From Diadema setosum (lineage: Eukaryota > Echinodermata > Echinoidea > Diadematoida > Diadematidae), in NCBI RefSeq assembly GCF_964275005.1, contig NC_092697.1:13499327-13563326 (forward strand): a DNA stretch of 64,000 nt, written 5' to 3'. The position numbers and the translations under genes are program-made. A model generated the notes under the pieces. That model was given only the letters and a program-made list of their open reading frames with translations. It did not search any database and was not told where the DNA came from. Positions 32,603-50,025 of this stretch are shown here, piece after piece. Every line of letters begins with the position of its first letter. Positions within the stretch are counted from its first letter, which is position 1.

Positions 32603-33136
32603 TCACAGCTGGAGTTTCCTGATGCGCACACGACACCGACCCGCACGGCTACGGCTACGCCTGCCAAACTTCAGCACCTCGACCTGCGTCCTGTTGAGCC
32701 GACTGCGGTAGTAGTCCGGAATGAGGTAGGGGTTGGTGACGAATCCTAGCTCCTTGTGGATGAAAAGGGTGTGGTCGAGTCTCTCTTGGAGGACTCTGTC
32801 CAGCTTCATGCGCCTGAGAAGTACTCTGAACTGCCGCCCCTTGACGTTTGGCGGGGCGTGGCGGGCGGAGTGCAGCTTCCCGTCTCCCTTGCGACTGACC
32901 GGACCGACTCTGCCGTCGCTGCATCTCCCATGACTCAGTTTCAGTTTGTGGAGCAGAATACTGAACTTCTGGTATTGTCCGCACAGGGGCGTTCTGTCGC
33001 CCCTCCACGGCTTGGACAGCATCCGCCTCTCATGGAGTGAAAGCCTCTTCAGGGGGATGATGCACTTATGCATCCCTCTGTCCCCAAGCATGATTTTGCG
33101 CATCACCACCTGACACTTCTTGGGAGTCACCTCCAT
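32603..33136 (-). CDS. Single-exon gene for a basic 177-residue protein, family unknown
   Basis: ATG (33134-33136, context ACAAGATGG) to TGA (32603-32605) on the minus strand. An in-frame TGA four codons upstream fixes the start. The codon pattern is strongly gene-like: third positions are mostly G or C (AAG, CTG, CTC, ATC, GTC, GAC) although the surroundings are AT-rich. The product is very rich in Arg, Lys and Leu, begins MEVTPKKCQVVMRKIML, has a Leu/Arg helical segment (GRQFRVLLRRMKLDRVLQER) and ends in an Arg/Ser-rich tail (RRSRSRAGRCRVRIRKLQL). No signal peptide or membrane helix is visible. I do not recognise the family; nuclear, nucleolar or mitochondrial RNA binding would fit its charge but is only a guess. 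It may be an intronless gene, a retrocopy or one exon of a longer gene. SMIM27 lies 1.4 kb upstream on the same strand. Confidence 0.68.
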   Translation of the reverse strand: MEVTPKKCQVVMRKIMLGDRGMHKCIIPLKRLSLHERRMLSKPWRGDRTPLCGQYQKFSILLHKLKLSHGRCSDGRVGPVSRKGDGKLHSARHAPPNVKGRQFRVLLRRMKLDRVLQERLDHTLFIHKELGFVTNPYLIPDYYRSRLNRTQVEVLKFGRRSRSRAGRCRVRIRKLQL

Positions 33137-34438
33137 CTTGTTTGCTCAATGTATGCAGGCTTACCTGCCTGTCCTCTCACTGTGTTATTTTTACCTGCAG
33201 GTAAAGGAGACACAGTAGAAGTTGCTTCTTATGAATCTCAGGTAAAGACATGCAGTATTGATCAAAAAGTAAAATATCTGTTGCACCATATCTCATTCAA
33301 CTATCACTGCACAATCAATATTATCATTATACATATAATCATTTATTCATTCATTCGGCATTTCCAGAGGACGATAAGAGTTACAAAAACACAAGCATAG
33401 TACATGAGTTTAAGAAATCAGGCTTCCCATGGTGTGCCTCCCATAGCTGCCGAATGGGAAAAAAAGCCATCAGGAATTACTACATTGTATGCCGCTTCCC
33501 CCCCCCCCCCCCCCCCCCCTCCTTGGGCCTTTCCAAAGAATGTTAGGGAGCACATCAGGAAATATCTCAAACAATGTAAATTGATATAACAATTGTAATA
33601 TGCATTTGTATTCAGATTGAGCACGATAAGTAAATCATTGTATAACCACAGGCTGTAATGGTCCTCCTGTTTGTCATTTTTCTGGAGAACATCATTCCTA
33701 CACAGCTTTCATGGTAGTGTCCACCAATAGAGAATTTCACATAAAAGAACTGCTCGGCAGAAGGCGGCAATATAATCTCACTGCGTTACCATCTTCCTGT
33801 CCAAACATGGATTTTGCACATCCAATATGGGATGGTGTCACAAGTCCTTTGTTGGCTTGGCAGTTGTATATACTGTACTACAATTACCATCTGATTTTGA
33901 AAAGAAAAACAAATATTCAAAAATCATAAGGATAACACTTTGTTGACTTTTTCAATTAGATTTTGCATACCACATCAAATTTGTAAATCTTAGATATTAT
34001 TATGTGCAAATTAAAATGTCTACAGCTTGTTCTGCACATCACTTCACACTGATAAATGTATTTCCCACTGTGAGTATCAAAAAGTAACACCTCCTACAAT
34101 ATCACACTTTTGAAAAAACTGTCTTTGCAACAACTTTGAGTAGCCAAGGTATGTTCAACTCTTGATGGGAAAAAAAAACAAAAACATAAAAGGCAAAAGG
34201 AAAAGTACCCTGCAGTGGGTCTGTTGCATACAAAAGTGAACAATCAAACATATGTCAGAAAATCAATCAAGTCCAGTTACGCTAATCGGAATGGAGTATT
34301 CGTAGACTTCGGTTTGATTTCCTGACTTATATTTGATCTCAACTTTTATGCAACAGGGTCCCTGGAGGTAAAGTCACCGTTTGTGCTTGTGCATGTGTGT
34401 GTGTTGTTGTTGATGGCTTTTTTTTTTTTTTTTTCTTC
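33137..34438. other. Spacer between the basic-protein gene and SMIM27
   Basis: Holds a possible splice donor on the minus strand (CAGGTAAGC near 33163-33171) that might serve a 5'UTR intron of the downstream gene, and a poly(C) run of about 20 bp near 33500. Otherwise AT-rich, with no recognised gene. Confidence 0.4.
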
Positions 34439-34444
34439 TTTAAT
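34439..34444 (-). terminator. Candidate polyadenylation signal of SMIM27
   Basis: ATTAAA on the minus strand, about 61 nt after the SMIM27 stop codon. It is followed by a genomic A tract on that strand. A short 3'UTR is inferred; no downstream element could be confirmed. Confidence 0.45.
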
Positions 34445-34504: not shown

Positions 34505-37500
34505 TCACGAGGCGGGGAGAGCGAGCTCTGGGTAGATCTTGATGGCTGTGATGCGACCAGCGTAGATGACAAAACCCCAGGTTACCAGGACCAACAAGGC
34601 TAATGCCTGGGAGAGGAGACAGTTAATCACAAACAAAAATCAAAGAGAACCAGGACTTCAATATCAGATTATACCCTCTCAGATTTTACGATGGTCATAC
34701 AAATTGTGACACTTTGCTTTGTTTCTTTAAATGGTAACTTCCTATTCATCTGTCTGCTGGCATTATACATAAGTGTATATGGGGGATTCTTTGTTATTTC
34801 TACTAGTATGGTTGAGGGTCCAATACATTGACACCCTAATGTTTTTTTTATCAACAGAAACTTAAAATATCTCACAATTAGCCTGAAATTTTACTCACAT
34901 GTCAAGAAATTACTCTGAATTTACAAGCATGCATTAAAAATGTGGTTTGTGGTACACACTCCAAGATAACTGCTTTGAACTCGTGGGGTGTTATTTTGAT
35001 GCACTTTTGATTGCACCGTAACTTTAAAACTGGCACCCCTACCCTCCATTGACAACACGTGTGAAATGCACGTAATGCTTTTCCAATGTGCATTTATAAC
35101 CTACGGTATCATTGTTTTGCTGTTGATCTTGTTTAGAATCAGGTTTTTCAGTAATATTTGGACATCTTGAAATCCCCAGTGAAGAATACAAAATCACTGC
35201 GTGTAGTCTCATGCATGAATGTTCATTCTATATGCGCAGTGCTATAAATAGAGGGGTGTTGGTTTCAATGTACATATTGATGTGTTGGACACTACCATAC
35301 TACAACTCTGATGACTAATAAGAAATGGAAATTTTGGACAGGTCACAAAACCTCATGACTTACTAGTGAACTCATGGGGTTATATCTAGTCAGTCACAGG
35401 TAGTCTGCCAAATAAAGATACTGCATTCAAATTTTCCTGGTACAATGCATACAATGTACAATGCATGTACGTGTAATTTTAATAAGATTCAGATGGAGGT
35501 ATGTTACAATATTTACATAGGGCCTATCTATCTTTATGGTAATAAAAAATATGTACAACTTCCATGAAAACTGTCCATGCCATGAAAATTTAAACAAGAT
35601 TAGACCAATTAAGTTTATGAAGATTTATTATAATACTGGTAATGTCAGTATTTCTAATCTATAGTGAACTGATGACAGCAAACTACTTAAAAGTTAAAGG
35701 AAACCAAAACCCAAAGAGAAATGTGGATTGAGTGAAAGCAGCAACATTAGTAGAATACATCAGTGAAAGTTTGAGGAAAATCGGACAATCGATGCAAAAG
35801 TTCAGAAGTTTTAAAGTTTTGGTGTTGGAACCGCTGGATGAGGAGACTACTGGAGATTATGACGTATGCGTGGACAAAAATATAAAGAAAATATAAAGGG
35901 AATTTCATAAAAATGCATTTTTCATGCAAATTACACATTCCATCAACTTGATACTGACATATGTTAAGGGTAACAATTATTCCCCCTGCTTTCTGAAAGC
36001 GGTTAGTCAAGTGCTCTTTCATTATGCTAGAAAAGTGAATTTTTGTGGAATTTTCTTTATATTTTCTTCATCGATTGTTGTCCAAACATGATGTCATGAA
36101 CTCTAGTAGTCTCCTCATCCAGCTGTTCCAACACCAAAACTTAAAAAATTTATAACTTTTGCATCGATTGTCTGATTTTCCTCAAACTGTTACTGATGTG
36201 CTCTACTAATGTTGCTGCTTTCACTCAATCCACATTTCTCTTTGGGTTTTGGTTCCCTTTAACCACAAATAAAATACTGTAAAAGTGGAAATTTTCGCGG
36301 TGTTCAAATTTTCGCGCATTTCGCGCAACCAGAAACTAGCGCAAAAATAAAAGCACGCGAATATTTTTGCTTGCCATATGTGCCTGTGCGTGATGTGTTG
36401 ATTCCGCGGAATTAAAAACACGCGAAACTCTTCCGACCCGGCCAAGCGCGAAAAATTAGTCACGCGAAAATATCCACTTTTACAGTAACACCCCACGCCT
36501 TCGAAGCAGTTATCTAGTTGGAGCATGTATTACTGCAAATCGCACTTTTAATGCGCGCTTGTGAATTCAGAGTATTTTCGTTACGTGCGAGTAAAATTTC
36601 AGGCAAATTGTTTTGTAAGATATTTTAAATTTCTATTGATAGAAAAACATTAGGGTGTCGATGCACTGGACACCCAACCATACTACCGAGTATTCCACTG
36701 TATGTAGGCTCTTGCCTCTGAAAGATGGAAACTAAAATTTCAGTGAACTCTAGCTGACTTACCAGGTCTACAATTGAATTGTATTTGGGGGTGGGAGGTG
36801 CCATACCTACCGTACCTAACCAGGACAATCTGACTCTTCTTACCGAATGATCAAGTGCATGTGTGTGTAAAAACATGACAATTTCTGAGCAACACAAACT
36901 CTCTCCAAGAATACCTTCAGAAATCCCACATCACACCAGATTAGGCCTCCCATGACGATTCTTGATCAGAAATTCGACTATCCACGTACTGTATGGATCT
37001 GGAACCACCTACCAAACAATGCTGTCACTGTACCTACTGTTGATACCTTCCAGAAGGCTGCCCTACCAATCATCAGGTTGCAGCCTCCCGTAGGGTCCAA
37101 AATGCTGTAAGCCTTGCAGCCTGATTTTTATTTGCACGCACATGACACTTGACTGTAAATAAGCTGCATTTGTATATTTATATAGCACTTTCGAGCACCG
37201 TCGGCCAGTGTCATCATCGCACAGTTCATCCCAGTTTAGCTTTCTACGAGCTGCTGCAGGGATTATCCTTTTAAGGTTCAAGGAGATACAAGCTCATTAT
37301 ACATACAGGCCATGGCAACATGAATATGAATCCTGACCTTACCATCAAACTACTACTACAGTTGAACCTCTCGTATCCAGACAAATCGGGACCGGGGCTC
37401 ATCCGGATAAGGGATTTGGCCGGATACGGGAGACTCAATGCTTTATACATGTACATATACATACACATGTACTGATGTAGCCCATTGTAGTCCCACATGT

Positions 37501-38943
37501 AGTTATGTGTATACTGCAACCTTTTCATTGTTATACTCAGTAACAGACCCCAAAATAGAGGTGTATGTTAATGTTGGAAGTAATATGTAAATCATGTGTG
37601 TTTGTGTAGGAGTTCTCAAGAAGTTGGGAATCCCCCTTTCCTCCCGTAATTATTTAAAAAAAATAAAAAATAAAAAAAAAAATCACGGCGAGATTGCGTC
37701 CGTATAATAGAGAGATCCGGATAAAGGGAGGCCGGATAAGAGAGGTTCAACTGTACATGTAGTTTAACCCCCTCTGCCTCTTCTACTAAATTACTCCTAC
37801 TCCCTTGACTAGCCTGGTCATTCCTCACTGATCCTAGAACTAAGCCCCTGTATCATTGTGTATGATGGCTGAACACACATGAACGCCTGTCGTAGGCAGA
37901 AGGTTAGCTCCGCACGCCCACCTAACAAAAGGTTAGCCTGGTTATTGGCTTGACATAGAACTACACACTGACTGTACCATGAATGATCTATTTCTGTCCG
38001 CACAATATCTTCAAGCTTTAGTGAGATGTACTCAGTATCTAGCAAGGAGGTTCTAGAGAATGGAGTCACAACTGTCTTATTTCCTTTGCTTGATGTTCGA
38101 AGCCGTGCTCAAAAATATTTGAAGCATGTGCCAAACAGGATCTGCTGCGCAGATACGAAGACAACTGACTCGTGTCTCATTGCATAATCACCAGCCACTT
38201 TCAAAGGAAGATATGTCTTTGTGATGGTATTTACTTTTCGCTATCCCTTCTTATAAAAGGTAGTTGGTACAGACATGAGGATGCGCGAATAGAAGTTGAG
38301 CAAAAAAAGATGAAAATTACTCGACTGGGCATACCCGGACACTAATCTGATAGATCTATCTATCAATAAAGTCCTAACTTGAAGATTATTCCATATTAGT
38401 TTAATTTGTGGATATCGAAATTAAGCCGAAAAGTGATAAAACCAGCTTTCCAGGATGGAATTTTCACATGAAGCTCTGATTTACACTTTTGCACAAATTT
38501 CTGGACGGGATTGACTTTTGTTTTCCTTTTACATGCTTTATCATTAAGTGAAATTTCATTCATTTAATAAATAAACCAACCTACGTGTAAGTAAGCAAAA
38601 TATGGCCAACATTATGATAACGTTCAAAATGAATCTTCAATCATCAACGGCACAAGTGCACTGTGGAATTCTTTTGTACATCAACAGAAATCTGAAAATA
38701 ACTGTTTGAATAATTACAGCCAGTTGGAACTCCATATATGGTTGGACCTACTACTCATCGACTGCCTGATTTTTATTTGTTTGATAAGAATATTTAACAC
38801 TGAAATTCACATTAAGACTCGACCTACATGATTGAGAAAATCCAGCACTATTACTGTTGTATTAATAAAAAGATCAACAACGTTGAAGAAACACTCACCA
38901 ACGCTATTGTAGTATCTACCGCTTGTTTGCTCAGTATTATCAT
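34505..38943 (-). CDS. SMIM27: SMIM27-like small integral membrane protein (two exons)
   Basis: Coding exons are complement(38899-38943) and complement(34505-34606). Exon 1 encodes MIILSKQAVDTTIAL and ends at a GTGAGT donor. Exon 2 follows a CTCCTCTCCCAG acceptor, starts ALALLVLVTWGFVIYAG and ends YPELALPAS, TGA, then a second stop TAG. The junction is phase 0 and the protein has 48 residues. A single hydrophobic helix spans about residues 13-31, with a short basic segment and a KIYP motif after it. From memory, human SMIM27 (55 residues) reads LLLAIVLISWGCIIYA in the same place and has a KKYP motif after the helix. The two align without gaps from residue 1 to the end of the helix, sharing S5, D10 and the W-G-x-x-I-Y-A block. 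Human SMIM27 was first named TOPORS-AS1, and TOPORS lies divergently next to this gene here too. Molecular function is not established. An upstream short frame overlaps the start codon. Confidence 0.85.
35694..36262. mobile_element. TTAA-flanked long inverted-repeat MITE in the SMIM27 intron
   Basis: Begins TTAAAGGAAACCAAAACCC and ends GGGTTTTGGTTCCCTTTAA. Arms of well over 150 bp share blocks such as GTGGATTGAGTGAAAGCAGC and their complements, with a spacer of about 200 bp. A decayed relative lies at 54053-54505. Confidence 0.8.
36277..36485. mobile_element. TA-flanked MITE in the SMIM27 intron
   Basis: Left end CTGTAAAAGTGGAAATTTTC and right end CGCGAAAATATCCACTTTTACAG are inverted copies with TA on both sides. 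The interior is CGCG-rich and non-coding. It sits only 14 bp from the preceding MITE. Confidence 0.8.
36490..37355. other. SMIM27 intron sequence without further recognised content
   Basis: Short open frames only. A segment near 37170-37290 (CCGTCGGCCAGTGTCATCATCG) is slightly GC-richer but carries no recognised exon. Confidence 0.4.
37359..37753. mobile_element. pogo/Tigger-like MITE, copy 1 (SMIM27 intron)
   Basis: Inverted ends CAGTTGAACCTCTCGTATCC and GGATAAGAGAGGTTCAACTG, with TA at both edges (37357-37358 and 37754-37755). The CAGTTGAACCTC-type terminus and TA target are typical of the pogo/Tigger branch of Tc1/mariner. There is no transposase. Subterminal ATCCGGATAA motifs are repeated. 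A second copy in the opposite orientation is at 56131-56519. Confidence 0.85.
37756..38898. other. First part of the SMIM27 intron
   Basis: Runs from the exon 1 donor at 38898 to the pogo-like MITE. AT-rich, no further exon recognised. Confidence 0.45.
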
Positions 38944-39130
38944 GTCTGATAGACGTGGATCATCATATCATCTGGGCAAATACCTGCTGGTTGCTGAGTC
39001 TCTTCTTCCCACACTTTTCCTAATTTTCACCGCTTTCTTCGTGTTTTCTTCGCGCAGTCCCCGTAGACGTTTGTCGTTCCGGTACATTTGTACTGTGTAT
39101 CATACGAGACAACACACAACACTACCACCG
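38944..39130 (-). promoter_or_regulatory. SMIM27: SMIM27 leader and probable promoter
   Basis: Upstream of the start codon on the minus strand lies a moderately GC-richer, purine-rich segment. It holds ACCGGAAC, an ETS-type core, near 39076-39085. An upstream frame (ATGATGATCCACGTCTATCA..., 8 codons) ends in a TGA that overlaps the main ATG as ATGA. The transcription start is not defined. Confidence 0.4.
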
Positions 39131-39199
39131 GACCCTGCTCGCTATGGTTTAATATGGTGGCCGAAAAGGGGAAAATACAAGCGAGAAACGAGACAATCG

Positions 39200-39320
39200 T
39201 TTCCCCCCCCCCCCCCCCCCCACAGCTCTGTTTGTTTGTTTGTTTGTTTGTTTGTTTGTTTGTTTGTTTTTTGTTTTTGTTTTTTTTTTTGTTTTTTTTT
39301 TTTTTTGGGGGGGGGGGTGA
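39200..39320. repeat. Poly(C), (TTTG)n and poly(T)/poly(G) cluster
   Basis: In order: about 18 C, a (TTTG)n block of about 36 bp (39231-39268), a T-rich stretch and about 11 G. Composition alone makes the open frames seen here. Confidence 0.85.
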
Positions 39321-39421
39321 GGGCATACTAGATGCATAACGTTGTGAGACAATGCACGATTCTAAATAATGTTATGATCTGTTTCTTTAATTGTCTCTTT
39401 CTTTCAAGTAAGAATATAATA

Positions 39422-39580
39422 CAGTTGCGGATCCAGAAGGGGGCGCAACCGGCGCACCCCCCCTTTTTTTTAATTAAAAACAAAAGAAATAAAAAGAAAA
39501 AAGGAAATGAAACCCGGGAGTTGCACCAAAATTATTAGTTGCGCCCCTCCCCCTTTATGGAATTGCTGATGGTTAGTATC
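39422..39580. mobile_element. GGCGGATCCAG-type short repeat, copy 1
   Basis: Starts ACAGTTGCGGATCCAGAAGG, followed by GGGGCGC, an A-rich segment and GCGCCCCTCCCCC with TATGGAATT. The layout matches the copy at 43922-44076, but the right terminus has decayed. Confidence 0.55.
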
Positions 39581-39968
39581 AGATACCCAGACTGTGCAAT
39601 TTTAAGCTCAGTGTTCGGCTTCCATAATAACAGTAAAGTTTCCGAGTTTTCGGTACTTTAACAAATCAGTATAGTGGTATTAGTCACAACCACATTGCCT
39701 AGTAGACATGACGAAGAGTGTATAAGAGACCATAGGGGAGGTCACTAAACTGGGACGTTCCCTTCCCGATCCCCATGGAATTTGGCAAGTTTTCTATCTA
39801 ATCATTATCAAGTTTCATTATAGGCACAGTCTTGGGGACCTAACAGTATGTAGGGCCTACAATACTTATGCATTCCCACTTCAAATTGCCACACCCTATG
39901 ATTAAAAGAGGGAGGGGGAGGGAGAAGGGTAAGGATGAGACGCAATCTTAGTTACTGGCCAATAATCA

Positions 39969-40168
39969 GGGCCGACGGAACGTTTTCAAAAGTGGGGAGG
40001 GGGCACTTCCGGGTTTCTTCAGCTGACAAGCAAAAAGAAAAAAAAAAAGAAAAAAAATGGGGGCCCAAAGTGGTGACACCTTATGCATTCCTTTGTATGA
40101 TGCAAAAAAGTGGAGGGGGCCGAGCCCCCTGCCCCCCCCCCCCCCCCCCCGTTCCGGTTCCACCGGCC
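39969..40168. mobile_element. Short inverted-repeat element with GGCCG(G/A)(T/C)GGAAC ends
   Basis: Left end GGGCCGACGGAACG and right end CGTTCCGGTTCCACCGGCC are imperfect inverted copies. The interior has an A-rich run and a G/C-rich half with AAAGTGG-GGGGGC repeated at both sides. Non-coding. Confidence 0.55.
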
Positions 40169-40175
40169 ATAATAA

Positions 40176-40326
40176 TAGGGAGCTTTAGATTTTAGACTTG
40201 CGGACGTTCAAAGAGAAAAAAACATGATCTGAGCGTGCGCAGTAAGTTGATCCGCGCTACTGCGCACGCTCAGATCATGTTTTTTTCTCTTTGAACGTCC
40301 GTGCGTCTAAAATCTAAAGCTCCCTA
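40176..40326. mobile_element. Near-perfect foldback element (~66-bp arms)
   Basis: Arms begin GGGAGCTTTAGATTTTAGAC and end GTCTAAAATCTAAAGCTCCC, flanked by TA. They match almost base for base, apart from a 4-nt TTGC/GTGC difference, around a loop of about 13 nt. The central arm contains GATCTGAGCGTGCGCAGTA. The near identity implies recent origin or gene conversion between arms. Confidence 0.85.
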
Positions 40327-40638
40327 ATGTATAAAAAACTCCATCACCGTGGCCCTCCATCCCTCCATCCCTCCCCACCCCTGTTCTCTCTTCTATCTTC
40401 TATCAGAAGTACATGTAACATATATACCCATTTTCAAATCCTTTTTTGAAAAATCAGTTTATGTATATGTTCATATTTTGTTGTTATACTTTGTATAAGC
40501 CTAGATATGGTTTTCCTTGAACTTGTATCGGCAACAAAAATTTGCTATTGGAAATAAATTTTCATTTGAAATTGAAATATATAGATATATATGTATACAT
40601 ATATGTATATACATATATATATATATAAATATATATAT

Positions 40639-42232
40639 ATGAAGACTTTTATCGCAAAACAAGCTAACTCCATTCTTGATAAGTTGAGATATCTGTATTT
40701 GTGATTAAAGCTGCTAAAAAAACCAAAGAAAATAATTAGAAAATGCAGGATATTTTCAATGGTATGGTATGGTAATTTATTTCCGTAAATATAAAACTCA
40801 ACATTACAAATCATGTGATACAAAAACTCATAAATAATACGGCTGGATAGCCTTACTCAGCGAAGAGGACCATTATGGTCCCGCTGTTTTACAGGAGGGT
40901 CCAGTATAAATTAAAGTAATACAGTTTCTTCAATTAAACAACAAATCAAAATATATACAGTGAGAAGAAAGAAAAAAACATAAGAAAAGAAAAGAAAAGG
41001 AAAAAGAAAGAAATTGAAAAATAACATTTCCCATTAATTTATGTATTAGTAATCTGTCATGTACTGACTTATATCAAACATAAGAAGAGATGTGCTCTTG
41101 CAGTGATCGCTTGAAAATATCTATACTGGTTGCTTTTTTTTATTGACAAAGGGAGTGAATTGAACTCCCTACTACCTCTGTATGAAACCATTCTCTTACA
41201 ATAATTTGTTCTTGGAATATCAAGGTGTAAATTGAAATTAGACCGCAATGAATACAAATTTTCTGTGGGTTCAAATTTATCAGTCAAATAAGACGGTGTC
41301 ATGTTATGTAATGCCTTGTAAACTAATTGCAGTAGATGCTGTTTACGTCGAGAGACAAAATAATCCCATTGGAGAGTTTGGTGCACTTGATGGGTAGATA
41401 TGTGAGAATATGGATTTATGTTCAAAATTATTCTTCCAGCTCTATTCTGAAGTTTTTGAATCATATTTGCATGATTACGCTTTCCAGAATCCCAAACAAC
41501 GTCGGCATAATCAAACTGTGGTAAAATGAAAGACTTGTATAAATTCATACTTTGTTCATTGATTATATGCCTAAGTCTGCCCATGAAGCTCACCATTTTA
41601 CTCACTTTTTTACAAATACTTTCAACTCAGTTGTGTATTCCAATTTAATTCCGCATCTACTGATACCCCTAAGTGTTTCACATGATCTACCTGTTCCAAT
41701 TTTTTCCCATTTACATTCAAATTTAATTTATTACATTTGTTCAGTGACTTTATATTTCCAATAAACATACATACTGTTTTATCACAGTTTAGACTCAGTC
41801 TGTTTTTACACATCCAGTCAGAGATCGTATTTAATTCCTGTTGCAATTTCTGTTGAACAGTATGAGGATTTTTACTTGAAAAATGCAAAACAGTGTCATC
41901 AGCGTATAGATGGATTTTACAATTTTCAACAGTTTTAACCATGTCATTTATATAAAAGGCAAACAGTAAAGGTCCCAATATTGATCCTTGAGGTACGCCA
42001 TATGAAATACATTGTTCGCGTGATAATGTGTTTCCTACTTGAGTTACAATTCGTCGATTTTGTAAATATTCCCTAAACCACATTATACTGGAATCGTAAC
42101 TGCTAGAATATTCCTTGTTATGTCACAAGTGAGGTATTGCTGGAAAGGTTTAATTTTGCTCTATCTGATGATGGACATCCTTTGAAATGTTTGATAATGG
42201 CGCTTAGCTCATTTTGCATTAAAACTCTTCAT
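40639..42232. mobile_element. (TA)n-associated MITE split by a LINE
   Basis: Left end ATGAAGACTTTTATCGCAAA and right end ATTTTGCATTAAAACTCTTCAT are inverted copies over about 40 bp. Each is set against TA microsatellite DNA. The MITE halves are 40639-40758 and about 42120-42232; a LINE occupies the middle. The left half shares its interior with 52555-52698. Confidence 0.7.
40759..42118 (-). mobile_element. 5'-truncated LINE (CR1/Jockey-like) with reverse transcriptase
   Basis: On the minus strand 41622-42083 (and a few codons upstream) encodes the reverse-transcriptase core with GVPQGSILGPLLF and LYADDTVLHF, the catalytic YADD box. 41069-41605 continues with the thumb/C-terminal region (FILPQFDYADVVW, KLQNRAGRII). 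The two parts are in different frames: one frameshift lies near 41610-41625, after HLGVSVDAELNW. The endonuclease domain and the 5' part are missing. The 3' end, at the low-coordinate side, is a short TACCA tandem, typical of this group. It is inserted inside a MITE. Confidence 0.85.
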
Positions 42233-42239
42233 ATATATA

Positions 42240-43385
42240 TATACATGACATTATATACATATATATATATATATTATGTAATCATATAGAAATCTAGGGA
42301 TAGAAAGATATAGAGATTTATGCAGGGCGGGACGGGCTTGGTTTGTTTCATTACTCTCGCAAGTGCGATCTCCTTAGAGATTGTTGTTTATAAATCCTCC
42401 GGTCACGACTGGTTTTGAGGCGAGAAGGCAAGGCAACAAAGAGATATCACCTTCAAGACACACCGGCAGTCTTAATTACAATCACAGAATATAGTTCCAT
42501 CAGCGTTCGATGATTTTTTTCTACTCTCTTTCAGAGCGTTGCATACGAAAGAGTCAGAGAAGTATTTGTCTCATTTAGTATAGGTGAACAAAACATGAAC
42601 ACGTCAAGAACAATATGCCGAATAAAAATACCCCAAAGAGTGTGCTGCTTTCAAACTAAGTTCAATTTCCGAAGTATAATTTTCCCATTAAAACACTTTG
42701 AAGAAGTTTTTTTTTTTTCATGATTGTTTATTATGAGTAACATTGAATCTACGTGATCTTGCGTACATGCATTCGGTATTTAGAGTTAGTGCATCATCAA
42801 TCCTTTTTGCTGTTGTACAATATAAGTAATATTCATCAAAGGCTGCAAGTAAGATATGTTGATGCAAATATATTGTGCATCTATTATCATACAACAATTT
42901 TCACATCTTGAGTACAATGTATTACAGAAATGACATAACTCTTTACTCACTCATATGCACTTGATAAGAACTATGATTTATCGTAACTGAATTTATTACG
43001 TTTATACACAATAACAATATTCTGAATTATGTTTTTTTGTTGCATATCTTATGGCATTTTAAAAAGTGCGATTAGATATGCATGCATTATGAAAAGGACC
43101 CATCACTGAGGATTCCAGACATTAATTCCCCCTCAAAAAAAAACAAAAACAAACAAAACATGGGACATTTCTGCGTATAGCATGCAATGCAGGGGTGTCA
43201 CTGCAGGTTTTGTTGAGGATATGCGTGTCTTGGGGAGGGGCGGTTACTCGTGGGGAGGAAGCAGTGCTTGTATAGTGACGCTAGAGCCACTTTTTACCAT
43301 TTGCAGATGGAAAAAGCCAGCTTTAGCGTTTGAAAATACAATGTACTTCTAAAATGTGAATTAGGGATAGAAACAAACAATGTGA
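42240..43385. other. Gene-free AT-rich spacer
   Basis: No gene or transposon end recognised. Confidence 0.45.
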
Positions 43386-43396
43386 AAATGTTAATC

Positions 43397-43526
43397 CAAT
43401 CCAATTCAGTTCAATTCAATTCAATTCATTTCAATTCAATTCAATTCAATTCAATTCAATTCAATTCAATTCAATTCAATTCAATTCAATTCATTTCAAT
43501 TCAATTTAATTCAATTCAATTCAATC
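43397..43526. repeat. (AATTC)n pentanucleotide array
   Basis: About 130 bp of TTCAA/AATTC repeats with a few TTTCAA variants. On the minus strand this would be the tandem tail of a LINE 3' end, with TTTTCCAGCAAAACATAAAA beside it, but no reverse transcriptase is attached. Confidence 0.85.
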
Positions 43527-43921
43527 ATTTTTCATTCTTTTTTTCCAGCAAAACATAAAACAGAATAAATCAGGATGACGGGCATGTATTCAACTTTGCA
43601 TGATAGATAATGGTTAAAAAAAAATTATGATAAACTACAAAGTTATGTTTAAAGGGGAAAAAATAAATTGAGAGGTCCACTTAAAAAGCATGCCTGTATA
43701 CTGTGAACCACTCAAAGGATTCATCATTAATCAGCATAATTAATGTTAAGCATTGTTAGATATACAAAATGTGAACAAAGGTTATATCAAAATCGTTTCT
43801 ACATTATAAATCGTCTAAACAGTTATGACTTATTGAGGAAATAATTTGTGATACCTTTTACATATATTTATGGCTTTATTGCGAAATTTTATATGGTAGG
43901 ATGTTTTGCGATACAACTGAA

Positions 43922-44076
43922 CCAGTGGCGGATCCAGACGGGTGCGTCCCTTTTATCTTCTGTTAAAACAAAAGAAATAAAAAAATAAAAATGGGGCGTG
44001 TGCGCCCCCTTAAAATAAAATGTCGTAAAGGCGCCCTCGAAATCCCCCTTACGGAATTCAGGGATCTGCCACTGTG
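43922..44076. mobile_element. GGCGGATCCAG-type short repeat, copy 2
   Basis: Left end CAGTGGCGGATCCAGACGGG and right end GGGATCTGCCACTG are inverted. The middle is A-rich and flanked by GGGGCG / CGCCCC blocks. It resembles 39422-39580. Confidence 0.65.
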
Positions 44077-44079
44077 AAC

Positions 44080-45155
44080 TTAAGTATATAGATACAAATG
44101 AATCAAATGTGATAACTCAAGTTATTATTTTTAGTGGCGGGGAGGGGGGGGTACTGCCCCCAGATGCTGCTGACTTCTTAATGGCAAGGGGGTAATGCTC
44201 CCCACCCTTACTTTCGATAGGAAGAATATCTGAGTGAAACCCTCGGAAAATGCTCCGGTTTGCTTGCATTGTTTTAAAGCTAAAACACAGTGTACGTGTG
44301 AGCGGGGAGAGTCTGTACCCCCCCCCCCCCCGTGGGCCCCTTACATTGCAGGATTTACTATAATGTTGGTACACGGCCTGGTGAAATTTGTGTTGTATGA
44401 CTTAGCACTAAACATAAAAATATACGTAGTACCTGCAGGAATGAACTAGACTTCCTTGGCACACATGTACTACAATAGGTTGCTCTACTCTCTCTGACTC
44501 AAGCAACACATTTGTCGTGTTATAGCAACAAACAAAAAAAGCTAGTAAGTAAATAAATGAATAGATAAATAAGTAATGAATAAATAAATAAAACAATGGA
44601 TAAATAGATGTACAAGTAAAAATGAAAAAAAAACAAGAATGTCGACTTGGATGAATTGAGATGATAAATCATAAGTACATATTTGTAAATGGAAAATGCA
44701 AATTAATTAATTTATAATCACAATAACAACAATAAAGGTAATAGCAAAAAATACGAATTCCACAAATTGGGACATAGAACACCAAAACTTAATCCAAGAA
44801 ACTAACAAGACTTTCAGAGAGCTTTGTAGATTCGATTATGGGGTTAATTCCTCCTCCTTGAATGTGGAACAGGAACGCAAAAAACAAAATGAAAAAAAAG
44901 AATTAAACAAAAAAAAGAAAAAAATAATAATTACAATAAACTAAGTTCATGCATCCCTAAGAGTTCCACCCGAAGATTCTTCCCTTGTGAGGGGGGTACC
45001 ATTGTCCTTCACACCCCCCCCCCCCCCACATACACGCACATACACACCCAATATTTCGCTGCCCCTACGTCATACAACCTGAGACCTTCATGGATACTGA
45101 TTATACCATTAACATACTTCTTCTTTGTCTATTTTCCATCTTGCTTTCTGTTTTG
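44080..45155. other. Spacer upstream of TOPORS
   Basis: Contains a GTGGCGGGGAGGGGGG stretch at 44134, poly(C) runs near 44320 and 45017, and A-rich AAATAAATAAAT repeats at 44545-44610. No gene recognised. Confidence 0.45.
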
Positions 45156-45159
45156 CATT

Positions 45160-45627
45160 TCCTATATCACCCGGTACCCAGCAGCCCAGCGTCAAGCGTC
45201 ATAGGCCTACACCAGTTGAAGGAGGTGGGTGGAAGAGGAGAGGATCCAATCTACATGGTACAATGTATGTCCGGCTACCGGGAATTTCGGAGCCAGTTCG
45301 AAGAGACACCGGGGTTGGGCGGCCTGCGGAGGTGGGGGGGGGGGGGAGGAGTAGGGCAGACGGTACGCCCGGGCAAGGAACAAGTGAGTTCCACACAGTG
45401 AGAACGTTGTGACAGCCGGGCGAGGGGATGGGGTGCAAAGGATTTTGGTGGGGGGGGGGGGCGGCCGGGGACGTGACGTCACTCATTATGTATTCACGAA
45501 GGGTTCTGCGCAGACAGACGGAGGTGGAACTGTGAATTAGCAAAACTCACCGTAAAATTTCACATTAGCATGACTTTCCAAGAGTAGAATCAACTTCGTA
45601 TTTGAATCTTCATTCATTTTCCATAGG
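45160..45627 (+). promoter_or_regulatory. TOPORS: Probable TOPORS promoter and non-coding first exon
   Basis: A GC-rich island in AT-rich DNA, with GGGGCGGCCGGGG-type runs and a perfect cAMP response element TGACGTCA at 45474-45481. The sequence after it ends at a good splice donor (ATAGG|GTGAGTG, donor at 45628). The next acceptor before the coding exon is ATAACTTGCAG at 47209-47219, so a 1.6-kb 5'UTR intron is inferred. The transcription start and exon border are predictions. Confidence 0.5.
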
Positions 45628-45890
45628 GTGAGTGTGCTTAATTCGTTTATGTGTGTCTATGTATTGAGATATCTGCCATTATCTATTGTTGTGTTGTTTC
45701 ATAGGAAACCGTGTCAGAGATTCGGTCGTGGTCCCGCGTATTGAAAATGATGTGTTGTTTTGTATTGTCTTCACAGTGCAATTTCGCGATCGCGATCTCG
45801 TCTTTCATTCGGTGTTTTTAATACTAATAATAGACTTCAGAAGTTTAGGAATTACATAATTGAAATAGATTATTGATAAGTCTGCATGAC

Positions 45891-46061
45891 GCTGCTGTGT
45901 TTCTAATGAATTATTATGAACATGATGATAAGGTTATTCATGTCATTTTAGAAAAAAAAAGCAAGTTGAGCCTTGAGCCTGAGGAGGATCCGTTTCGGCG
46001 TTTGCGTGAAATGAAGCCGCATTATAACCCGCAGTTATCGGAAAATGTAAAAAAAAAATAA
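45891..46061 (+). CDS. Short open frame in the TOPORS 5' intron (doubtful)
   Basis: From ATG at 45906 the frame gives a charged peptide ending PHYNPQLSENVKKK. A possible acceptor (ATGTCATTTTAG) lies inside it, so KKSKLSLEPEEDPFRRLREM could be a small alternative exon. No homology is recognised and it is not needed for TOPORS. Confidence 0.15.
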   Translation, partial: AAVFLMNYYEHDDKVIHVILEKKSKLSLEPEEDPFRRLREMKPHYNPQLSENVKKK

Positions 46062-46096
46062 ATTGACAGCTAGATCTAGATCTAGCTATTGGCTCC

Positions 46097-46334
46097 GGAA
46101 AGAGTTCCTTATGTTCCCCCCCCCCCCCCCCATCAACTTGCACAAAACAAACAAACTACTATTCCTTTTTACCAATAATAAACTAAATAAAGGTTATGCC
46201 ATTTATTCATGGGAAGACTTCCCATAACCTTTATTTAGTCCACCATCAGCAAAAAAAAAAAAAAAAAAAAAAAAGAACAGCAACCTATCTATTTTGTGCA
46301 AACTAGTGGGGGGGGGACATAAGGAACTCTTTCC
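46097..46334. mobile_element. hAT-like MITE in the TOPORS 5' intron
   Basis: Inverted ends GGAAAGAGTTCCTTATG and CATAAGGAACTCTTTCC are flanked by an 8-bp direct repeat TTGGCTCC (46089-46096 and 46335-46342). An 8-bp duplication is the hallmark of hAT elements. An inner hairpin (ACTAAATAAAGGTTATG and its complement) and poly(C)/poly(G) tracts lie inside. Non-coding. Confidence 0.8.
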
Positions 46335-47259
46335 TTGGCTCCTTACTAATATTAGAGTCTATTTGTTTGTGCCAATTTGTTCATGAAATTTGACGCAGTC
46401 GGGGGTTTACTCCATCACCATCTTATTCAAGAATCCAGATTTGTGAATGAAGGAGTATGAACAATGCTGGGACAAACAATGTAGAATAGGAACATCAATC
46501 ATCAATTTAATGTAAAGCATTAAACAAGTTTAAAAAAAATTGAATTGTAAGCAATTAAATGTGAGCAACTAATAAATTCTTCACAAAAATATCCAGCAAG
46601 ACATAAGAGTATTTCATGCATGCTATACAAAGTGTACTGTGAATAACAGCAGTGATATAAAGGCTGGATGAATTGGAGAAAAGGAGCAAAGTTGGATTTC
46701 AAAGTTGTAACCATATATGTCAATAAATCATTTCAATCAAATTAGATTCATTTGTCAAGAATGTGATGATCATTTTTAGTTGTAGTTTCATAGAAGGAGA
46801 TATTGATACATTTTGGCAAGATCATTACCACTGCACTGGTAAAAAAAAAAAAAAAAAAAAGCAAGGAAAAATTCATTCTTATTGAAAATAGTATAAAAAA
46901 GTATATTGTTTGAATAGTTAACTTGACAAATCTTTTGATCTTTTTTAAGTTCAGTGATTTATGTTCTTGTGGAATACCATAAAAATAAGTAATATTTAAC
47001 ATGCAAAGCTACATTCATAGTGTGCCTAAATTGTACTGTCATATGAATGTCACCGAATATTCCCTTTGCTTCATCTTTATTTGTTGTGGTGTGTGCACAA
47101 AGCTGTTTTTAATGCAAGGAATCTTCATGTTTAATTAAGTGTGAATACTTGCTGATTGATGAAAGATCAATGTGACTTAAAAACTAATTTTTCTTGACTT
47201 TCTTTATTATAACTTGCAGACTTCTCTTCACAAATTATGCCTTGATCAAGTGTTATACA

Positions 47260-50025
47260 ATGGATGAGGCAAGTGTTCAAAGAGGATTGCAGAAGGCACT
47301 CAGTGAATCTTCAAAAAGCACCAAGAGCAGGAAGGATGCTGAGCTAGCTCCCACCGACAGCGATGCTTCATCACGCTCCGGATCTCCTGACCAGTGCTGC
47401 CCCATATGCCTTGGCAAGTTCAAGGACAAGTCCTTCTCAGACGGCTGCTTTCATCGTTTCTGCTTCCAATGCATTTTGGAATGGGCCAAAGTAAAGTCAA
47501 CATGCCCCCTGTGCAAGGCAACATTTAAATCCATCATTCACAATGTCGTGTCCAGTGACGTGTATGACCAGCATGTCCTTCAACCCTCTGAAAATGGGTC
47601 CTTTGACACAGATCGCCATGGCGCGAGGTTTCGATATCACACCACCCTTGCTAATGGAAGGCGGTCTGCCTGGCAGACTCGCATGGATCAGCTGCTTAAC
47701 CGTCAGGCAAGGCTGGCAGAACGCCTTCAACGAGAGAATGAGGCACGCCAGCGCCGTCAGCTTATCTATGCAGCCGGCTTACGGGTGCACCACATCGCGA
47801 CAAATAGGTTCACAAGGTTCAGAGACACATCTCCCCACTTTTTCCGCGAGAATCCGGCTGTCACACACCGCCTCATCCCATGGCTCAGACGTGACCTCGG
47901 TGTACTCTTCAATGGGAACTCTGACCATGTCACCTTTATGACCCAGTACATCCTCTCACTGCTTCCAAACGTGGACATTCAAACTGAGGAGTTTCACAAC
48001 CACCTCAGACCATTTCTATACGGCCGAACAGAACACTTCATCCATGAATTCACCAGCTTTGCTCGCTCGCCACATGACATGGACACTTATGACCAAATGG
48101 CACAGTATGACTTCCGGCCGGAGAATCCTCAGTTCACAGCCACACTACGGCCCCAGCAACCGCTGATAGCCCAGAACAGTAGCAGTGATGACAGTGAGGA
48201 GAACAATCTCCCCATCAACAACAATAACAACAACAACGAAGTCATCCTCATATCATCTGATGACAATGATGACGATGCAGAAGAAAATGTAGCTGTGAGG
48301 TCTGTGAGTAGCAGCCAGCCTCATAACACATCACAAGACATTCCAGGGCCTTCCTCTGCAGCTGACGTAGCCGGACCATCCACACAGTTTGACTTCTCAT
48401 CCACTCACAATCCAGAACCCCCAGCTATAGTGGACCATGACCAGCCGGGACCCTCTGGCATCAACAGCAGCCTGCAAATCAAGCAGGAGCATAATAGTCC
48501 CGCTGCCGAGGCTGAGGGGGAGCAGAGTGAAGACAGCAGCGGTAGCGTGGAGATTGTCGGTTATCAGAAGCCATTCCATCTGCGTACCCCAATAGCATTC
48601 ATCACCATATCAGATGATACCTCTACCGAGCCAGAAGCAGATGCCAGAGGAAAGCAGGGGAAGAGCAAGGCCACTGCACAGAATGGCGTAGTGGAGGAGA
48701 AAGCAGGAGGTAAAAGGAAGCAAAAAACCAAGCATACGCGGAATTCATACTCTGCAAGCAAAGCCAGTAACTGGTCCACTGACTCAGATGACAGCTACAG
48801 TGGGTCCAGACATGACAGACATCACCAAAGGAGCAGGGACTCAGATGAAAGGAGAGGCGGGCACTACTCATCCCGGTATCGGTCCAGAAGGAGCTTTGGA
48901 TACCACCAGGACAAGTCGCGCAGTCCCAACGAGCTGTACCGGAAGTTCAGGGAGGAAAAGAATAAGTGGAGTCTGTACTATGAGACCAGGCATGACAGCC
49001 ACTCCCTTTCACAATCCACCTCTTATTCAAGGACCAGGGGACACAGCTCAAGGACTTTGTCAAGGTCTCACTCTAGGTCTCCTTCAAGGTCAAGGTCTGA
49101 CACACACTATCATCGCAGGTACTATGGAGACAGGAGGTACGGCGACTACGATAGGCAGTGGGAACACTCGAGGGAGAGTTCATGGCAGTCACGCGATGAC
49201 TCCTACAGGAGGAGGAGCAGAAGTAGGAGCAGATCGAGGGAGCGATCAAGAGAGAGTAGCAGGTACTCGAGGGATGACTGGCATCGAAGGAGGACTAGGA
49301 GCCGTAGCAGGAGTCGTAGTAGGAGTGGAGGATGCAACTTTGATCCCAATACAGACTCCAGCAGGCACAGCTCTTGGTACAAAAACCGATATGGGAGCAC
49401 CTCCAGCTCACTGAGCAGGATTTCCCAACAGGAGAGCGGTTTGTCACGGAGCAACCCGACAAGTCCTCATCGCGAAGGCCCCTCTCATCTCCCCATGTCA
49501 CCAAAGCGAAAGCACGAAGACGACCCCAAGGAACCGAAGGACGGTGGTGATAGGAATCACAGCAAGAAGCACAAACACAAACACAAGCACCACAAGAAGA
49601 AGAGTTCCAAGCGCAAACACCGCAGGAGAGAAAAAGACAGTGAGAGTAAACACAAGGGCAATGGAAAGCACAGTAAACATAAGTCAGACAATGGGGCCAA
49701 GCCAAGTGAAGATCACCAGCAGCCTGATGTTGGTGAAAATGCAAGCAGTGCCGAAAGCTCTTCCGAATGCCAAGATGGGAGCCAGGTCGGTGAGGATGTT
49801 GCTCTGGGCAGCAAGCTCAGGACAGTCATTTCTGATGGAATGACGTCCCACATTACCTTGCAGGACCTTCTCAACATGGACGACAATATCAGTTTAGGCT
49901 CCATTCAGCAGAGCGAGCAGAGTGACAAGGACTCAGTTTCCAATGTAGCTTCCAGTGCAACTACAGAGCTGGTTGTCCTTCATCAGGGAGAAAATCAAAT
50001 AGTACCACCTTTACCGAAGGAGTAG
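47260..50025 (+). CDS. TOPORS: TOPORS, RING-finger/SR-rich E3 ubiquitin and SUMO ligase
   Basis: A 921-residue protein from one large exon. The start is ATG 47260 (MDEASVQRGL), 40 nt after the splice acceptor at 47219; the frame is open further upstream only into the intron. Residues 47-85 form a C3HC4 RING (C47, C50, C63, H65, C68, C71, C82, C85) ending CPLCKATFKSI. Residues about 256-272 (RTEHFIHEFTSFARSPHD) match a block highly conserved in human TOPORS. Acidic and Ser/Asn-rich segments follow, with hydrophobic-acidic SUMO-interaction-like motifs at about 327 (EVILISSDDNDDD) and a VEIVGYQKP block at about 430 that corresponds to VIVGFVKP in human. Residues about 505-690 are Arg/Ser/Tyr-rich; about 747-795 are Lys/His/Arg-rich (HKHKHKHHKKK), likely nuclear targeting. 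Human TOPORS has 1045 residues, acts in the nucleus on p53, topoisomerase I and other targets, and also has most of its coding region in one exon. Confidence 0.96.
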   Translation: MDEASVQRGLQKALSESSKSTKSRKDAELAPTDSDASSRSGSPDQCCPICLGKFKDKSFSDGCFHRFCFQCILEWAKVKSTCPLCKATFKSIIHNVVSSDVYDQHVLQPSENGSFDTDRHGARFRYHTTLANGRRSAWQTRMDQLLNRQARLAERLQRENEARQRRQLIYAAGLRVHHIATNRFTRFRDTSPHFFRENPAVTHRLIPWLRRDLGVLFNGNSDHVTFMTQYILSLLPNVDIQTEEFHNHLRPFLYGRTEHFIHEFTSFARSPHDMDTYDQMAQYDFRPENPQFTATLRPQQPLIAQNSSSDDSEENNLPINNNNNNNEVILISSDDNDDDAEENVAVRSVSSSQPHNTSQDIPGPSSAADVAGPSTQFDFSSTHNPEPPAIVDHDQPGPSGINSSLQIKQEHNSPAAEAEGEQSEDSSGSVEIVGYQKPFHLRTPIAFITISDDTSTEPEADARGKQGKSKATAQNGVVEEKAGGKRKQKTKHTRNSYSASKASNWSTDSDDSYSGSRHDRHHQRSRDSDERRGGHYSSRYRSRRSFGYHQDKSRSPNELYRKFREEKNKWSLYYETRHDSHSLSQSTSYSRTRGHSSRTLSRSHSRSPSRSRSDTHYHRRYYGDRRYGDYDRQWEHSRESSWQSRDDSYRRRSRSRSRSRERSRESSRYSRDDWHRRRTRSRSRSRSRSGGCNFDPNTDSSRHSSWYKNRYGSTSSSLSRISQQESGLSRSNPTSPHREGPSHLPMSPKRKHEDDPKEPKDGGDRNHSKKHKHKHKHHKKKSSKRKHRRREKDSESKHKGNGKHSKHKSDNGAKPSEDHQQPDVGENASSAESSSECQDGSQVGEDVALGSKLRTVISDGMTSHITLQDLLNMDDNISLGSIQQSEQSDKDSVSNVASSATTELVVLHQGENQIVPPLPKE

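Follow-up and report, generated by a model that had tools for sequence, protein, structure and literature searches.

A predicted SMIM27-like gene and TOPORS lie head to head

The locus lies within a stretch of 64,000 nucleotides of the Diadema setosum genome (contig NC_092697.1, positions 13,499,327 to 13,563,326 of the forward strand), which was analysed as a whole and is referred to below as the window. Its minus strand carries a predicted two-exon gene whose product resembles SMIM27. The first coding exon (38943-38899, minus strand) holds the start codon, comprises 15 codons and reads MIILSKQAVDTTIAL. It ends in TTG and is followed directly by the splice donor GTGAGT (38898-38893, minus strand), which falls among the best 0.56% of the 7,507 GT sites in the window when scored with a simple position matrix. 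The second coding exon (34606-34505, minus strand) is preceded by a pyrimidine-rich acceptor, ...CTGTCTCCTCTCCCAG, and reads ALALLVLVTWGFVIYAGRITAIKIYPELALPAS before its stop codon, including a membrane helix with the residues WGFVIYA and a KIYPE tail. The two exons are in phase and together give 48 codons, and hence a product of 48 amino acids with one membrane helix. The hydropathy of this product peaks at 2.49 over 19 residues (residues 13-31), with maxima at residues 13-31 and 16-34. From the splice signals and the reading frame, the intervening phase-0 intron would span 34607-38898 on the minus strand (4,292 bases), and the gene is predicted to be transcribed and spliced as modelled.

Base composition sets the second exon apart from the intron (GC 0.57, with 0.70 at third positions, versus 0.38); the first exon, at 0.38, is intron-like. 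About 60 bases past the stop codon, an ATTAAA on the minus strand (34439-34444) is a possible polyadenylation signal, which may have arisen by chance given the adjacent run of A. The intron is rich in inverted repeats, which are probably mobile elements. They lie at 35693-36263 and 34804-36685, the longest having arms of 171 bases that are 91% complementary, and several longer-range pairs are present as well.

On the plus strand, the coding exon of TOPORS (47260-50025) encodes a RING domain, the TOPORS central domain and an RS-rich tail. TOPORS is the topoisomerase I-binding RS protein, a RING E3 ligase. The open frame extends from 47188 to 50025, where the stop codon ends, and the probable ATG is at 47260. 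A TTGCAG acceptor is found 40 bases ahead of this ATG, and because the coding exon starts at such a good acceptor, an upstream TOPORS exon is likely. The N-terminal RING was recognized by three Pfam families, all above their curated cut-offs (zf-C3HC4 PF00097, 1.7e-9; PF13639, 3.7e-7; PF13923, 1.6e-6), and matches of the product in the PDB were to other RING proteins. Aligned to a segment of human TOPORS that was not taken from a database, the urchin protein is identical in 115 of 278 columns (41%, 199 bits), the central domain included. Among 12 candidates scored across the 912.7 Mb genome, the RING-plus-central region finds a single match, which is the gene's own locus.

The two genes are therefore divergent, with SMIM27-like on the minus strand and TOPORS on the plus strand, as the preliminary description had proposed. 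Their start codons are 8,316 bases apart. Between them lies a reverse-transcriptase fragment in two frames (41069-42122, minus strand), which probably sits in TOPORS intron 1. Of the 127 open reading frames scanned, one matched Pfam RVT_1 (3.4e-18), and a YADD motif points to the frame at 41622-42122 as the one concerned. This Pfam scan of the window took in 125 of the 171 open reading frames with a GC content of at least 0.44 together with the two reverse-transcriptase frames of lower GC, out of 621 frames of at least 45 amino acids in all, 450 of which have the lower GC. RVT_1 was the only convincing family found, the four others having E values of 0.006-0.008. Farther along the minus strand, an open frame of 180 codons (32603-33145, GC about 0.58) is possibly an exon; it has no Pfam match, and long overlapping frames occur there on both strands.

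The membrane exon carries a specific similarity to human SMIM27

Human SMIM27 is a small protein of about 55 residues that spans the membrane once. The sequence that we used as query was not taken from a database, which is the main caveat on every SMIM27 comparison given here; a text search of the open-licence literature with fragments of the sequence found no printed copy of it. Residues 4-36 of the 48-residue product align to residues 4-36 of the human query with no gap and with the start codons in register. Eleven of the 33 positions are identical and 23 are positive, for a BLOSUM62 score of 68, which bears out the original observation that the minus-strand protein aligns gap-free to SMIM27 through its helix. 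Past the helix, a gap of four residues that had escaped the preliminary description brings IKIYPE into line with RKKYPD, and the local score becomes 69 with a gap opening of 11 or 73 with a gap opening of 7. The urchin protein and the human query share S[KR]xxxD ahead of the helix, WGxxIYA where it ends, and KxYP[ED] within the tail.

Short membrane proteins can resemble one another through composition, and the null used here keeps both topology and composition, the residues of the human protein being shuffled only among others of the same part (N-terminal, membrane or tail). None of 3,000 such shuffles scored 68 or more (mean 23.5, SD 4.8, best 50). We also enumerated two-exon models on both strands of the window, with a start exon of at most 120 bases, an intron of 50 to 8,000 bases, a GT donor of loose consensus and a YAG acceptor with 9 or more pyrimidines among the 15 bases ahead of it. 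The proposed model ranks first among the resulting 66,094 combinations, and when the query was shuffled, 0 of 392 versions found any two-exon model in the window that reached 68, the closest scoring 66. The second exon by itself scores 55 against the human query, and not one of 1,000 shuffled queries found an equally good acceptor-led exon in the window (mean 32.9, SD 3.6, best 49). It is also the top match in the window by tblastn with the composition correction off (E 7e-4; next 0.84). The membrane exon bears the SMIM27 signal, and the first exon is the weaker half of the model. With the proviso that attaches to the human sequence, these comparisons support a similarity to SMIM27 beyond that expected from the composition of a membrane helix. 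The best-kept residues cluster at the end of the helix (WG..IYA) and in the tail; most likely, the protein would be a small accessory subunit of a larger membrane protein, against which its helix would pack.

The preliminary description had suggested profile searches of the 48-residue product against SMIM27. Pfam reported no family for the product at E values up to 10; its identity as SMIM27 is supported by the alignment, the shuffles and the position of the gene. A search of the PDB with the product gave no match and, as expected, the bacterial and archaeal and the viral contig collections held no relatives of it.

Searched against the whole 912.7 Mb genome, the human query did not bring up the SMIM27-like locus. 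Because of this, the evidence for SMIM27 is local and leans on the position beside TOPORS. The two matches that the human query did return, on contigs C6 (E 0.066) and C5 (E 2.07), each contain an internal stop and were rejected as second SMIM27 loci. The former is part of a repeat, the same RKKYPD stretch occurring on both strands there, and neither has an open SMIM27-like frame. With the urchin protein as query, two equal-scoring places on contig C17 (E 0.376) have two stops each, likewise with no open SMIM27-like frame, and were set aside.

A possible shared promoter or inherited linkage

A candidate promoter for both genes lies at 39020-39200 and is not assigned to a strand. It holds an ETS-like ACCGGAA at 39083 on the minus strand and a YY1-like AATATGGTGGC at 39151 on the plus strand. 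These are few-base matches from a scan with seven patterns; across both strands of the window, ACCGGAA occurs 3 times and the YY1-like AATATGGTGGC pattern twice. An E2F-like site at 39056 (minus strand) is one of 5 in the window, and a CCGGAAG stands at 40012. The strict YY1 pattern had no match within 39.0-39.2 kb, and the TCTCGCGA and NRF1 patterns had none in the window. The CpG ratio at 39.0-39.2 kb is 0.95-0.96, a value of at least 0.95 being reached in 7 of 57 windows of 400 bases. Because it is matched so often, this ratio gives no support to a shared promoter, and we have lowered our estimate of one for that reason.

The ETS-like and YY1-like sites, together with the acceptor ahead of the TOPORS coding exon, suggest one divergent promoter. 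Under such an arrangement, TOPORS would begin with an untranslated first exon at 39.0-39.2 kb, followed by an intron of about 8 kb that ends at the 47.2 kb acceptor. Most of the 8.3 kb from one start codon to the other would then be TOPORS intron 1. Candidate plus-strand donors for the first exon follow 39316, 39407 and 39928, for example. We lean only slightly toward the view that a single promoter near 39.0-39.2 kb drives both genes; if it does, sharing it could be the reason that the pair has stayed together.

One alternative is that a true SMIM27 lies beside TOPORS by inherited linkage, the two genes being expressed independently and from separate promoters. The distance between the start codons and the reverse-transcriptase fragment between them favour this reading, and a spacing of 8.3 kb with a retroelement inside is by itself no demonstration of a shared promoter. 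The unremarkable CpG ratio and the presence of mir-31 in the vicinity also favour independent expression. Against it stand the good acceptor, which makes an upstream TOPORS exon likely, the ETS-like and YY1-like sites just upstream of the first SMIM27-like exon, and the placement of the RIG-I-type and UBAP2 matches on other contigs. We regard linkage of this kind as a plausible but somewhat doubtful account.

Human UBAP2 is on 9p, and the one UBAP2 match in the urchin genome is on contig C7, not on the TOPORS contig. RIG-I is described as adjoining TOPORS in zebrafish and human (PMC2686710). In the urchin, RIG-I-type C-terminal domains occur in at least seven places, on contigs C16, C18 and C8, among 12 candidates scored, and none of the seven is on the TOPORS contig (C13). 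Four of the domains fall within about 0.34 Mb on C16. Because the RIG-I-type and UBAP2 matches are on other contigs, the vertebrate block was not simply retained whole; as far as tested, the larger block has not been kept and the SMIM27-TOPORS pair has.

Two further genes were sought by profile. Across the genome, neither NDUFB6 (PF09782) nor aprataxin (PF16278) gave a match, but the controls gave none either. In the window, an NDUFB6 protein used as query found no convincing match on either strand (best E 1.4).

A mir-31 precursor lies at 1344-1430 on the plus strand, about 46 kb from TOPORS (RF00661, 63.8 bits, E 3.7e-12). It is the single mir-31 locus in the genome; a second match falls on the other strand at the same position. 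In human, MIR31 and TOPORS share 9p21 but are megabases apart. The Rfam search found nothing beyond mir-31, and the tRNA search found no tRNA.

The first coding exon

The first exon contributes less to the alignment, and its choice was examined separately. The 12 kb upstream hold 116 open stretches that begin with ATG and run for 15 codons, and among these the proposed exon matches SMIM27 residues 1-15 best (score 12, next 8). Seven of the 116 end at a GT, giving candidates that place methionine on methionine at exactly 15 codons; here too the proposed exon is best, with 12 against -2 for the next, and it alone has a GTRAGT donor.

These figures bear on the possibility that the second exon is the true SMIM27 membrane exon but is joined to another first coding exon, which would leave the gene pair standing and make the 48-residue model incorrect in part. 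When residues 2-15 were shuffled, 1,335 of 20,000 versions (about 7%) yielded a GT-ended stretch scoring at least 12, and 12,527 of 20,000 did so when all 116 stretches were allowed. With the second exon fixed and offsets left free, other start exons reach scores up to 67, and upstream ATGs and short reading frames precede the proposed start. Set against this are the GTRAGT donor and the wide gap in score among the seven GT-ended candidates. Because of its exact position and strong donor, the proposed exon is likely to be correct, and we consider a different first exon unlikely. It is more unlikely still that there is no gene at all and that a chance open frame merely resembles SMIM27 as any hydrophobic membrane helix might: the protein is short, its locus is missed by the genome-wide human query and one shuffled query came to 66 against 68 window-wide, but shuffles that control for helix composition never attain the score, and the specific agreement in WG..IYA and KxYP[ED], the strong donor and the adjoining TOPORS gene all speak for a gene.

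Discussion

We conclude that the locus probably contains a two-exon echinoderm ortholog of SMIM27, predicted from its sequence to encode a single-pass microprotein of 48 residues, head to head with a single-copy TOPORS. The genome also has a strong match to bindin (PF02084, E 2.9e-54, with a second piece at 3.8e-12), a sperm protein of sea urchins and also of sea stars, which points to an echinoderm and most likely to a sea urchin, an invertebrate deuterostome. The preliminary description had gone on to argue that the pair dates to a bilaterian or deuterostome ancestor. The echinoderm match speaks for the deuterostome age: provided that it is genuine, it supports the view that echinoderms and vertebrates inherited the pair from their shared ancestor. 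More tentatively, SMIM27 and TOPORS may be a regulatory unit that goes back at least to the ancestral deuterostome and that a divergent promoter has held together as other neighbours were rearranged. We put the chances of this somewhat below even.

The same locus bears on how the human gene is viewed. In one paper, SMIM27 is equated with TOPORS-AS1 (PMC8656283), and the latter name is the commoner of the two in the open-licence literature. The paper with the most mentions of TOPORS-AS1 treats it as a non-coding RNA, SMIM27 being absent from the main text (PMC8021562). If the same two genes are partners in a sea urchin, this would argue that selection has kept the reading frame and not only the RNA. 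The contention that SMIM27 is a genuine old protein and not an antisense RNA is to this extent strengthened, the conserved reading frame being its one support. If SMIM27 and TOPORS do form a conserved regulatory unit, the human long non-coding RNA TOPORS-AS1 would in fact be a messenger that encodes a conserved microprotein, and the tumour-suppressor effects reported for TOPORS-AS1 would need to be re-tested with the reading frame destroyed.

We found no invertebrate or zebrafish SMIM27 in the open-licence literature, although gene databases may already list orthologs. Among papers on head-to-head gene pairs in deuterostomes, none concerned the SMIM27-TOPORS pair by title, and a search on miR-31 and TOPORS synteny returned nothing relevant by title. 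One paper on TOPORS and bidirectional promoters does not concern a SMIM27-TOPORS promoter. The urchin gene adds a new lineage to a known gene and does not represent a new type of system. It also supplies a short list of conserved residues for testing.

Compared with the human segment, urchin TOPORS has the same RING, the same downstream domain ending in RTEHFIHEF.SFARSP and the same RS-rich and lysine-rich tail. It differs in a shorter linker between the RING and central domains, with 45 gap columns in all. The SMIM27 loci of the two animals can be compared in the same way. NDUFB6 is described as lying opposite TOPORS-AS1 (PMC6160698). In the urchin window, no NDUFB6 was matched on either strand with the protein as query. 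The urchin SMIM27-like protein is of the same length class as human SMIM27 (48 versus 55 amino acids), with a single membrane helix in the same place. However, its tail is four residues shorter past the helix, and the last residues are little similar. Both proteins carry the KxYP[ED] motif in the tail, and both genes are oriented divergently to TOPORS.
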